In this document: positions 27,074-30,995 of the stretch, one piece after another
How the letters are laid out: each line of letters begins with the position of its first letter
How positions within the stretch are numbered: position 1 is the stretch's first letter
From: Hydrogenimonas thermophila
Lineage (GTDB): Bacteria; Campylobacterota; Campylobacteria; Campylobacterales; Hydrogenimonadaceae
DNA length: 64,000 nt
Assembly: GCF_900115615.1 (NCBI RefSeq)
Contig: NZ_FOXB01000003.1
Span: 62,001 to 126,000 of the forward strand
Direction of reading: 5' to 3'
Program-made: the position numbers and the translations under genes
Notes under the pieces: model-generated
The model's database searches: none
Told to the model about the DNA's origin: nothing
What the model saw: only the letters and a program-made list of their open reading frames with translations

Positions 27074-27132
27074 TGACGAAATTATGACATTTTTTGACGA
27101 TTTAATAAAAATTTAATTGACTATTTTCGTCA
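27074..27132 (+). promoter_or_regulatory. Candidate operator: three TGACGA boxes before the recombinase-like regulator
   Basis: TGACGA occurs as direct copies at 27074-27079 and 27095-27100 and inverted (TCGTCA) at 27127-27132, the last between the -35 and -10 of the gene's likely promoter. The arrangement suits autoregulation by the downstream DNA-binding protein; this is inference. Confidence 0.4.
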
Positions 27133-27146
27133 TTATAGTGTATGAT
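27117..27146 (+). promoter_or_regulatory. Promoter of the recombinase-like regulator
   Basis: TTGACT (27117-27122) and TATGAT (27141-27146) are separated by 18 bp; a strong GGGAGGA site (27161-27167) and the ATG at 27170 follow. Confidence 0.55.
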
Positions 27147-27169: not shown

Positions 27170-27820
27170 ATGACATACGCATATCTTAGACAGGTACCTG
27201 GAACCAAAAGTCTAACACTGCAGCAAAAAGATGTCATTGGTTATGCTTTGGCAAATGGTCTGGAGATAGACAAAGAGGTTGTTGAACACTCCAGTAAAAA
27301 CCGTCCGATTGAAGAGCGAAAACAGTTTGAAGAGTTTATGCATTCAATAAAAGAGGGTGATAATCTTATTGTTAATGAAATTTGGACTCTAAGTAATAGA
27401 GTTGATGAAATCATAAAAATAATATGTTGCACCATAAGTCGAAAAATAAACCTTCATATTGTTAGTCAGGGAATACTGATTACCAAAGAGACGCAATTAG
27501 GACAGGTTTTACCACTTTTAAATGAAGAGAGGGAGGAAATAGAAGAGAAAAGAGTTAGTGTTGGGAGACCAAAAGGGAGTAAATCACGCTCAAAATTTGA
27601 TGCTTTACAGCCTAAAATTATACAGCTGCTTAAAGATGGTTTAAGTGTGAGTGCTATTGCTCGTGAACTTAATGTCAGTAGAAGTTCATTAAAAGATTAC
27701 ATAGAGTCACGTTCTCTAAAAGAACTGATTGATAATACATTTGTTGCAATAGGAAAACCTTTGCAAACAGATATTATAAGCGATGAAATGTTAATATGTC
27801 CATTTGAACAGAAAAGTTAA
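27170..27820 (+). CDS. Serine-recombinase-like DNA-binding protein lacking catalytic residues
   Basis: The 216 residues follow the resolvase/invertase layout: N-terminal recombinase fold, the connecting helix (EEREEIEEKRVSVGRPKGSK) and a C-terminal helix-turn-helix (DGLSVSAIARELNVSRSSLKDYI). Aligned with gamma-delta resolvase, however, the nucleophile Ser10 is Val9, and Asp67, Arg68 and Arg71 are Trp72, Thr73 and Asn76; only Arg7 remains. It cannot perform strand exchange and is more likely a transcription regulator. It lies 24 bp upstream of ccoG in the same direction, suggesting control of the respiratory genes that follow or simply co-transcription. Confidence 0.85.
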   Translation: MTYAYLRQVPGTKSLTLQQKDVIGYALANGLEIDKEVVEHSSKNRPIEERKQFEEFMHSIKEGDNLIVNEIWTLSNRVDEIIKIICCTISRKINLHIVSQGILITKETQLGQVLPLLNEEREEIEEKRVSVGRPKGSKSRSKFDALQPKIIQLLKDGLSVSAIARELNVSRSSLKDYIESRSLKELIDNTFVAIGKPLQTDIISDEMLICPFEQKS

Positions 27821-27844: not shown

Positions 27845-29311
27845 ATGCAAGCAACAGCCGGCGCTTCTGCGTCAAATAAAAAAGGTGCCAAAGAGTATTT
27901 AAAAAATTGGATACCTTATCGTATAAAAAGATATTGGCTTTTTGGGATAGTTACAATTGTAGCTCTTGTGCTGCCATTTATAAAAATAAACGGTAACCAC
28001 TTCTTTTTGCTTAACTTTGACCACAAACAGCTTCATTTTCTGTTTGTTAGATTTGATATGCAAGAGTTATATTTGATGCCATTTTTGTTGATGCTTCTCT
28101 TTTTGGGTATATTTTTTATGACAACACTTGGCGGTCGTGTGTGGTGTGGATGGGCTTGTCCACAGACAATTTTCAGAGTTATATATCGTGATTTATTTGA
28201 GACAAAACTTTTACATCTTCGTAAACGAATTACAAATAAACAGCAAGAACCAGACTGGTCTAAGCCTCAAAATAGAGCTAAACAGGGTATTGCTATTTTA
28301 TTGTGGTCTGTTTTAGCTTTTATTGCGGCAGCTGATTTTGTATGGTATTTTGTACCACCTGAAGATTTTTTTCAATATATTCAAAATCCAGGTGAACATA
28401 CTGTTCTTATAGGTTTTTGGATTGGTATTGCTCTATTTTTGATTGTAGATGTTGTATGGTTAAAAGAGAATTTCTGTGTATATATCTGCCCATATAGCAG
28501 GGTTCAGTCTGTTATGTATGATGATGATACAATTATGGCTATCTACAATACTCATCGTGGTGGACATATTTATGATCACGAAGGACAAGATGCTAAAAAA
28601 ATTGTAAACAGTGTCAAAGAGTTGAAAGAGAAAGAGCCTGAAGCAGAGTGTACGGCTTGTGAAAGTTGTGTCAAAGTTTGTCCTACGCATATTGACATTA
28701 GACAGGGTATGCAGCTTGAGTGTATTAACTGTTTAGAGTGTGTTGATGCCTGTACTAAAGTCATGGGTGCACTTGGCAAAGAGAGTCTTGTTGTATGGTC
28801 AAGTCCAAGAGAGATAGAGAAGCAAGAGGGTAAAACTAAATTTATCCGCCCAAGAACTATTGCATATTCAGTAGCTTTGACAATAGTCTTTGTAGCATTG
28901 TTGGTAATGGGAACAAAGAAAGAGCATATGCTGTTAAACATCAATAAAACAGCACAGCTTTACAGGTTTACTCATGATGGACGAATAGTAAACGACTATA
29001 CATTCCTTTTCCAAAATACAGACAGCAAAGATCACAAATACTATTTTGAAGTAGTGAATCGTCCTGAGATTAAAATTATTAAACCTAGTAAGCCATTTAA
29101 ATTGACAGCAGGTAAAAAAGCTAAAAAGATTGTTCAGCTTGAAGCTGTAAAACCATTGGCTAAAGATTCAAGAAAAGATACACCTGTTCCGGTTACAATA
29201 AAAGCATATGCAGTTGATGATCCTGAAAAGATTGTTGTTGAAAGAAATACTGTCTTTGTCTATCCAAGATGGGATATCGTCCAGAAAAAATTGAAAAATA
29301 TGGATGAGTAG
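27845..29311 (+). CDS. ccoG: Cytochrome cbb3 oxidase accessory protein CcoG (FixG/RdxA)
   Basis: A 488-residue membrane ferredoxin that reduces copper for delivery to cbb3 oxidase. Membrane segments lie around residues 34-52, 80-98, 155-175 and 187-208, and another near 342-360. The polyferredoxin motif GRVWCGWACPQT precedes CVYICPYSRVQS, and two 4Fe-4S clusters are bound by CTACESCVKVCP and CINCLECVDAC. The C-terminal 120 residues form the periplasmic Ig-like domain of FixG. The structural ccoNOQP genes are not in the window. Confidence 0.94.
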   Translation: MQATAGASASNKKGAKEYLKNWIPYRIKRYWLFGIVTIVALVLPFIKINGNHFFLLNFDHKQLHFLFVRFDMQELYLMPFLLMLLFLGIFFMTTLGGRVWCGWACPQTIFRVIYRDLFETKLLHLRKRITNKQQEPDWSKPQNRAKQGIAILLWSVLAFIAAADFVWYFVPPEDFFQYIQNPGEHTVLIGFWIGIALFLIVDVVWLKENFCVYICPYSRVQSVMYDDDTIMAIYNTHRGGHIYDHEGQDAKKIVNSVKELKEKEPEAECTACESCVKVCPTHIDIRQGMQLECINCLECVDACTKVMGALGKESLVVWSSPREIEKQEGKTKFIRPRTIAYSVALTIVFVALLVMGTKKEHMLLNINKTAQLYRFTHDGRIVNDYTFLFQNTDSKDHKYYFEVVNRPEIKIIKPSKPFKLTAGKKAKKIVQLEAVKPLAKDSRKDTPVPVTIKAYAVDDPEKIVVERNTVFVYPRWDIVQKKLKNMDE

Positions 29312-29339: not shown

Positions 29340-30530
29340 ATGGAGATGAAGAGTGTATTGGTTCTGGGGGGAGGGTTTGCTGGTCTTGAGGCAGCAATAT
29401 TTTTAAGAAAAAAAGGTTTTAAAGTCACGATGATTTCAAATCGTGACTATTTTTATATCTATCCTACATCTATTTGGATCCCAACAGGTGAGGCTGAGTT
29501 TGAAGATATTTGTGTACCTCTTAAAGAGCTTTCAGATGTTCACGGATTTGAATTGATAGTAGATGAGGTAAAAGAGATTTATTCTAAAGAGCGACGAGTT
29601 GTTTGTGCCAATGGCGAGTATGGATGTGAATATCTAGTAATAGCCATAGGCAGCGGTAAAATGAAGCATGAGGGAAGTGAACATTTCCTTTCTATATGCG
29701 GGGAGCCAAAAGAGGCTATAAAGATAAAAGAGCGTATAGATGAACTAATAAAAAAGGGTGGTGGAAAGATTGCTATGGGTTTTGGGGGTAATCCAAAAGA
29801 TCCAAGCAACGTTCGTGGCGGTCCAGCTTTTGAAGTACTTTTTAATGTCCATAACCATCTAAAAAAACTGGGTATTCGTGATAAGTTTGAACTAACTTTT
29901 TTTGCTCCTATGGAGAAGCCTGGTGCAAGACTTGGAGAACAGGCTCTTAAAATGATGGATATTTTTTTCAAACGTCTCGATATCAAACGCCATTTTGGTA
30001 AAAAAATAAAACGTTTTGAGAGTGATGGGATCATTTTTGAAGATGATAGTAAATTAGAAAGTGATTTTACAATGTTTATTCCTGCCGGAAATGGTCACCC
30101 TGTCTTTAAAAACTCTGATCTGCCACTTAATGAAGCAGGTTTAATTAAGATCAATGACTATTGTGAAGTAATTCATGACTATGATGAATCACCGGAATTT
30201 TACAATGTTTTTGCTATTGGTGACTCTGTTGCACTTGATGGTCCTGATTGGCGTGCAAAACAGGGACATGTTGCTGAAGTAATGGCTCGTAATGTAGCGT
30301 TTAACATCGATGCTATCTCCAAAGGGAGTGAAGAGCGCAAAGGTTATATGAGTCATATCAACATTCTTTGTGTTATGGATAGTGGTGATGGGGCTGCTTT
30401 TGTTTACAGGAATGACAAAGGTGGTAAAATGATCCCTATGCCTGTTGTAGGTCACTGGATCAAGAAGGCTTGGGGTTGGTATTGCAGAAACTCAAAATTG
30501 GAAAAAATTCCAAGAATACCAGGACTTTAA
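29340..30530 (+). CDS. FAD-dependent oxidoreductase, sulfide:quinone oxidoreductase type
   Basis: A 396-residue flavoprotein of the SQR/NDH-2 superfamily. The FAD-binding LVLGGGFAGLEAA is at residues 7-19 and the second flavin motif NVFAIGDSVAL near 300. A GFGGNPKDPSNVRGGP insert follows the NAD-like fold, and the C-terminus is amphipathic (HWIKKAWGWYCRN), suggesting peripheral membrane attachment. Classical SQR has two or three redox cysteines in set places; here I see only Cys in SICGEPK, ILCVMD and WYCRN, so sulfide oxidation is not certain. It probably feeds electrons from sulfide or another reductant to the quinone pool. Located 28 bp after ccoG. Confidence 0.75.
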   Translation: MEMKSVLVLGGGFAGLEAAIFLRKKGFKVTMISNRDYFYIYPTSIWIPTGEAEFEDICVPLKELSDVHGFELIVDEVKEIYSKERRVVCANGEYGCEYLVIAIGSGKMKHEGSEHFLSICGEPKEAIKIKERIDELIKKGGGKIAMGFGGNPKDPSNVRGGPAFEVLFNVHNHLKKLGIRDKFELTFFAPMEKPGARLGEQALKMMDIFFKRLDIKRHFGKKIKRFESDGIIFEDDSKLESDFTMFIPAGNGHPVFKNSDLPLNEAGLIKINDYCEVIHDYDESPEFYNVFAIGDSVALDGPDWRAKQGHVAEVMARNVAFNIDAISKGSEERKGYMSHINILCVMDSGDGAAFVYRNDKGGKMIPMPVVGHWIKKAWGWYCRNSKLEKIPRIPGL

Positions 30531-30555: not shown

Positions 30556-30948
30556 ATGACACAAAAAATCTTTAAAGAGAAGTATCCTATCTATGAATTG
30601 ATAATAGATAAGAGTGAAACTACATACAAAACAGTTGATGAGATAATAAACTATTTTAAAGGAAAGATAGAAGAGCATCCGGTAACAGCTTATATTGCTA
30701 TATTTGATCACTATGCACATACCAGTTCATTGAGTGTAGGTAATATAAGTGAAAATATTAAAGATGCTAAAAATATAGTTTTTTGTTTCGGAAAAGAGCT
30801 TCCTACACCTGAAGTAATGGCTGTTCGTCCTCGTTCAATTGGTGTAACTGATATTGGAGATAAATTTGTAATAATTTTTATGGAAGCTCCAAATCCACAG
30901 GCAAATGAAACTATGGAGAATTGGGCAAAATCTATTAAAAATATTTAG
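30556..30948 (+). CDS. Conserved small protein (DUF6858-like)
   Basis: A 130-residue soluble protein with conserved-looking blocks KEKYPIYELIIDKSET, AYIAIFDHYAHTSSL and VMAVRPRSIGVTD. I recall close relatives in Campylobacterota annotated only as DUF6858. The FDHYAHT segment with two histidines could bind a metal, but this is speculative. It lies 25 bp behind the SQR-type gene with a GGAGTTGGGGG leader, and a terminator follows, so it closes the ccoG-SQR operon. Confidence 0.7.
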   Translation: MTQKIFKEKYPIYELIIDKSETTYKTVDEIINYFKGKIEEHPVTAYIAIFDHYAHTSSLSVGNISENIKDAKNIVFCFGKELPTPEVMAVRPRSIGVTDIGDKFVIIFMEAPNPQANETMENWAKSIKNI

Positions 30949-30962
30949 TGTAACCTAAATAT

Positions 30963-30995
30963 AAGTGTCGAAACTTTTCGGCACTTCTTTCTTTT
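30963..30995 (+). terminator. Rho-independent terminator after the ccoG-SQR operon
   Basis: AAGTGTCGAA (30963-30972) pairs with TTCGGCACTT (30977-30986) around a four-base loop, followed by the T-rich CTTTCTTTTTA. It spans an apparent upstream GTG start for the next gene, which argues against that start. Confidence 0.8.

Follow-up and report, generated by a model that had tools for sequence, protein, structure and literature searches.

Resolvases of the small serine recombinase family are able to repress their own promoters. The family, which includes the Tn3/gamma-delta resolvases and the Hin, Gin and Mpi invertases, is characterized by an N-terminal resolvase fold, a GRP linker and a C-terminal helix-turn-helix (HTH), and its sites are inverted repeats with conserved hexamers at their outer edges. 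These features recur in a gene that we designate R and that resides on the plus strand at positions 27170-27820 of the window, i.e., the whole 64-kb stretch of Hydrogenimonas thermophila DNA analyzed here. R differs from small serine recombinases in lacking the catalytic Ser/Arg set, in its chromosomal and syntenic location, in a C-terminal tail bearing a cysteine, and in that its predicted operator of 38-40 bp lies within a host promoter and recurs at several host genes. Host transcription factors derived from mobile genetic elements have been described, such as SfsB of the Ner repressor lineage, an exapted mobile-element DNA-binding protein (PMC8987985). R resembles SfsB as a mobile-element DNA-binding protein apparently exapted for host regulation; however, SfsB-type factors began as repressors, while R would be an enzyme that has lost catalysis. 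No serine recombinase appears among the regulators treated in the passages considered from that review, inactive recombinases acting as regulators were not found in the open-access literature searched, and a review from 2019 on how respiration is regulated in Campylobacterota (PMC6682613) mentions neither recombinases nor ccoG. A third group for comparison comprises the dithiol sensors of per- and polysulfides SqrR (Cys41/Cys107), BigR and CstR (PMC9774590). The targets of SqrR and BigR (ArsR family) and CstR (CsoR family) include genes for sulfide oxidation and sulfur transfer (PMC9774590, PMC7315123). R shares with them two conserved cysteines, whose use in sensing is known for the repressors, and predicted targets that overlap in type. 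It is set apart by an unrelated fold, that of resolvases instead of ArsR or CsoR, and by a predicted regulon that includes ccoG and cydAB-type genes.

R is an intact open reading frame of a Hydrogenimonas-like member of the Campylobacterales and encodes 216 amino acids. Its product matches the Pfam families Resolvase (PF00239, 40.4 bits, cut-off 23.3) and HTH_7 (PF02796, 27.6 bits, cut-off 23.8), so that both the N-terminal resolvase domain and the C-terminal HTH are recognizable, and it scores below the equivalog cut-off for the Mpi-family master DNA invertase (NF009949; 62.3 bits versus 272). The model built by AlphaFold from four sequences has moderate confidence (pLDDT 64, pTM 0.51) and predicts a resolvase fold, a short helix ahead of the linker, an HTH and, at low confidence (pLDDT below 50), a tail carrying Cys210. 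The best Foldseek matches of this model are gamma-delta/Tn3 resolvase-DNA complexes (E 2e-8). A preliminary description of the locus had stated that Ser10, Asp67, Arg68 and Arg71 of resolvase are Val, Trp, Thr and Asn in R. Alignment to gamma-delta resolvase gave exactly these exchanges: the nucleophile Ser10 corresponds to Val9, Asp67 to Trp72, Arg68 to Thr73 and Arg71 to Asn76. Arg8, Gln19 and Arg45 are retained as R7, Q18 and R50. The genome also encodes an intact serine recombinase paralogue (L073, on the 5-kb contig C70), which served as control for the catalytic residues; it possesses Ser10, Arg68 and Arg71 together with Ser at position 67, and Asp67 alone is thus not diagnostic. Cys87 (codon 27428-27430, plus strand) in the remnant of the catalytic domain and Cys210 (codon 27797-27799, plus strand) in the tail past the HTH are both absent from gamma-delta resolvase.

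Strong homologues of R (E<1e-28) were found in many Campylobacterales families. Wherever the contig permitted the check, they directly precede ccoG in the same orientation, mostly within 60 bp or with overlapping genes; exceptions are a few genes truncated at a contig end and two homologues in f17 (f1, f5, f8 and f17 are family codes for GTDB genomes). The linkage to ccoG, which along with the substitutions the preliminary description had proposed to follow across the Campylobacterota, holds within the order Campylobacterales, a group of sulfur- and hydrogen-metabolizing bacteria. Among 397 genomes sampled from the phylum, no R homologue was detected in other orders. Homologues from phages and plasmids are distant (24-29% identity) and are either ordinary recombinases or unannotated phage sequence. 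Residue conservation was assessed for 114 ccoG-linked orthologues from many Campylobacterales families, and the counts given here refer to related, not independent, genomes. Ser10 is kept in two of the 114, Asp67 in one, and Arg68 and Arg71 in none; 111 orthologues retain none of the four residues, three retain one, and none retains more. Homologues with intact catalysis at the same place, named earlier as a sign of recent decay, are therefore not found in this set. Gln19 and Arg45 are present in 114/114, and the position of Arg8 is occupied by Arg or Lys in 113/114. At least 97% invariant are Q18, R50, C87 (114/114), the linker (GRPxG...SxSKxD), the HTH residues R171, S173, D176, S180 and R181, and C210 (113/114); the linker and HTH, already judged well preserved in R itself, are near-invariant across the whole set. 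Conservation of linker, HTH and cysteines without the catalytic residues indicates, at the level of sequence, that R is under purifying selection for a non-catalytic function. In the two f17 homologues (L062:3010-3561 and L065:1315-1869), both cysteines are missing along with the C-terminal tail, and neither gene adjoins ccoG; the one in L065 is divergent from a TehA-like gene, and an operator sits between the pair. A second resolvase-like protein is encoded in family f8 (L066, L068, L069, L075, L191), mostly with Ser10 changed to Asn, Arg68 to Val and Arg45 to Glu and with Arg71 kept. At the three loci read, its gene is flanked by rplI-hslVU on one side and by a cluster containing coaD-like and tmk-like genes on the other, and it may represent another non-catalytic recombinase family.

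The R promoter contains three TGACGA boxes, just as the preliminary description had reported, two on the plus strand (27074-27079 and 27095-27100) and one on the minus strand (TCGTCA, 27127-27132). Three boxes were reached in none of 20,000 mononucleotide shuffles. The boxes at 27095 and 27127 form one inverted repeat that is conserved across the order, and this predicted operator, TGACGA-N26-TCGTCA at 27095-27132, is the best site in the window, with a score of 29.5 versus 8.1 for the next. The third box, a half-site in direct orientation, precedes the operator by 21 bp. It is conserved in only two families, f1 and f5, whose promoters carry additional direct half-sites at distances of about 20 and 40 bp on the upstream side of the operator (11 occurrences at -20/-21 in 12 f1 promoters, 18 at -19/-20 in 24 f5 promoters). 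The upstream regions of the orthologues have in common the inverted repeat TGACGA(A/T-rich)-N-(A/T-rich)TCGTCA, with a TGGCGA/TCGCCA variant in some families. Hexamers at the outer edges and adjacent A/T tracts correspond to the arrangement of a resolvase dimer site. When up to one mismatch was allowed, 61 promoters yielded 14, 29 and 4 matches for spacings of 26, 27 and 28, respectively, versus 0.0 in dinucleotide shuffles, and other spacings were not enriched in these promoters. TGACGA-N26..28-TCGTCA with no more than one mismatch is present in 84 of the 114 R promoters, where essentially none is expected; with up to two mismatches the number rises to 106, a level that is not specific by itself. 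A promoter is predicted on the plus strand at 27117-27146 (TTGACT-N18-TATGAT), and the TCGTCA half-site falls within its spacer. The same holds for TTGA(C/T)-N16..19-TANNNT promoters in 102/114 cases. Auto-repression is predicted from this position of the half-site, and R thus likely represses its own operon. Activation of the MerR type, acting via the spacer, is less favored, because the -35/-10 spacer measures 18 bp instead of 19-20 bp and one half-site lies upstream of -35.

R is the first gene of a predicted operon on the plus strand. It is followed after 24 bp by ccoG (27845-29311; Fer4_18, FixG_C), which encodes a FixG/CcoG protein of the cbb3 oxidase assembly, cupric reductase family, by a gene for an SQR-like FAD oxidoreductase (29340-30530), putatively so named for its PDB matches to sulfide-quinone reductases (about 1e-21 to 1e-26), and by a gene for a DUF6858 protein (30556-30948), after which a terminator-like hairpin is located (30963-30986, plus strand). 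The last two genes bear operators of their own in other genomes and ride in the R operon here, which provides an independent cross-check. SQR-like orthologues outside the ccoG operon are preceded by an operator in nine of 14 cases, at -74 to -114 or ahead of a NifX-like gene heading the operon, and DUF6858 orthologues in L079/L270 and L263. An operator is also found ahead of cydA operons, with a NifX-like or DUF4492 gene first, in six of 13 cydA-bearing genomes and is absent from the other seven, while none of 30 ccoN loci carries one at a score of at least 17 (128 kb searched). The resulting Fisher values of 3e-6 for SQR-like genes and 3e-4 for cydA, each compared with ccoN, are optimistic because genomes are not independent samples. 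Further operators precede an operon for a small membrane protein and an M48 protease in at least ten genomes of one family, and a rhodanese-like and a TehA-like gene, so named from their sequences. The spacing of these operators matches that at R, and several of the cyd and SQR-like promoters also display the TTGAC-in-site geometry of the R promoter.

Exact operator sites are rare genome-wide. Among the matches listed, sites scoring at least 24 are confined to R-bearing genomes (22 of 34 sites, versus 0 of 14 in genomes without detected R), a co-occurrence that is partly circular for sites at R, since the matrix was trained on R promoters, and not for those at cyd, sqr, M48 and other genes. 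The genome of H. thermophila itself, searched with up to two mismatches, gave seven matches besides the R operator versus 16 for a control pattern, and an operator was not found at its cydA promoter. With one clear operator and none at cydA, the R regulon of this species may consist of a single operon, and our claim for a target here is limited to the candidate R-ccoG-SQR-DUF6858 operon. A conserved site in G003 and G008 (TGACGAAAAAAGGGGAGAAAATGG...), which overlaps a gene start, was left out of the targets. The protein encoded ahead of the M48 protease (L078, L080, L081, L082, L208-L212, L216, L217) has a single transmembrane segment, about 65-70 amino acids and the motif DY(D/N)xLKGxKK, and matched no Pfam family. 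In L097, L099 and L244, the first gene of cydA operons and of an SQR-like operon under R-type operators encodes the small NifX-like (Nitro_FeMo-Co) protein.

The preliminary description had read R as a recombinase fold converted into a transcription factor for respiratory genes. Dead orthologues and operators at its own promoter and at cydAB-type and SQR-like genes argue for this reading. We consider it very probable that R is a dedicated transcription factor, and have good confidence that this factor was exapted from a small serine recombinase and acts at the TGACGA-N26..28-TCGTCA operator. From the loss of catalysis, the conservation, the operator, the promoter geometry, the operator-bearing genes and the cysteines, all read from sequence, we infer DNA binding by a dimer, direction of regulation, thiol switching and signal as follows. 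A dimer of R, its HTHs pointing outward as in resolvases, would bind TGACGA-N26..28-TCGTCA. At the R promoter and, in relatives, at the cydAB and SQR-like promoters, the operator overlaps the -35, the -35/-10 spacer or both, or the start region, so that R most likely acts there as a repressor. It may activate at M48-protease promoters, where about 17 bp separate the operator from the -35 downstream of it. Cys87 and Cys210 probably form the sensor, and we lean towards R being a two-cysteine thiol switch. Oxidation or per/polysulfidation of the cysteines would free R from DNA, whereupon the SQR-like, oxidase and copper-reductase genes would be turned on. Reactive sulfur as the main signal is put forward tentatively. 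With the same reserve, we suggest that the family may coordinate cbb3 assembly (ccoG), a bd-type oxidase and SQR-like sulfide oxidation across the Campylobacterales via a two-cysteine reactive-sulfur switch. In E. coli, the haem-copper oxidase is strongly inhibited by sulfide and the bd oxidases are not (PMC4815019), and by analogy it would be coherent for reactive sulfur to control an SQR-like protein, the cbb3 copper reductase and a bd-type oxidase jointly.

In principle, R could be a transcription factor responding to a different cue, and two alternatives concern the signal only. One holds that the cysteines sense copper(I) or bind another metal or cofactor and that low copper derepresses CcoG and the copper-free oxidase; two cysteines are enough for Cu(I), and the linkage of R to ccoG is near-obligate. 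CcoG is a cupric reductase (PMC8267372) and bd oxidases are devoid of copper (PMC8951039). However, sulfur fits the SQR-like and rhodanese targets better and not one copA- or csoR-like target occurs among the sites examined, which leaves copper rather unlikely. We attach equally little weight to the idea that oxygen or a general oxidant is the cue and the cysteines form a plain disulfide: it agrees with oxidase assembly and oxidase genes as predicted targets, but ccoN lacks the operator in all 30 loci and the SQR-like and rhodanese targets would go unexplained.

It is improbable that R binds the operator at its own promoter only and that the counterparts at the cyd, sqr and M48 genes are read by another protein. 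These sites are known by motif only and f17 genomes possess an R-like protein without the two cysteines, but strong sites occurred only in R-bearing genomes among the matches listed, and the two sets agree in spacing and, for several of the cyd and SQR-like promoters, in TTGAC-in-site geometry. Even less credible is a recombinase that still works, with another nucleophile or an active partner, at the TGACGA repeats: operator and fold are resolvase-like and Arg8, Gln19 and Arg45 persist, yet Arg68 and Arg71 are lost from all 114 orthologues and Ser10 from 112, R is inherited in synteny, and a single operator resides in a fixed chromosomal promoter with no second site in the 64-kb window. A decaying mobile-element relic that came to lie beside ccoG by chance would account for the lost catalytic residues and is refuted by uninterrupted homologues, a near-invariant HTH and cysteines, and synteny fixed across the order.

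While resolvases doubling as repressors of their own genes are already known, no conserved dead-recombinase host regulator with a regulon and an apparent cysteine switch turned up in the literature searched. Database models label R-type proteins recombinases, and if these proteins are regulators, many 'recombinase family' annotations in Campylobacterales are misnamed. The regulator reading is directly testable now that the R operator is defined. If true, R would clearly exemplify the conversion of a DNA-cutting enzyme into a dedicated transcription factor that probably responds to a ligand or to redox state, and an unrecognized switch would join oxygen, copper and sulfide respiration in bacteria that are characteristic of sulfidic redox gradients.
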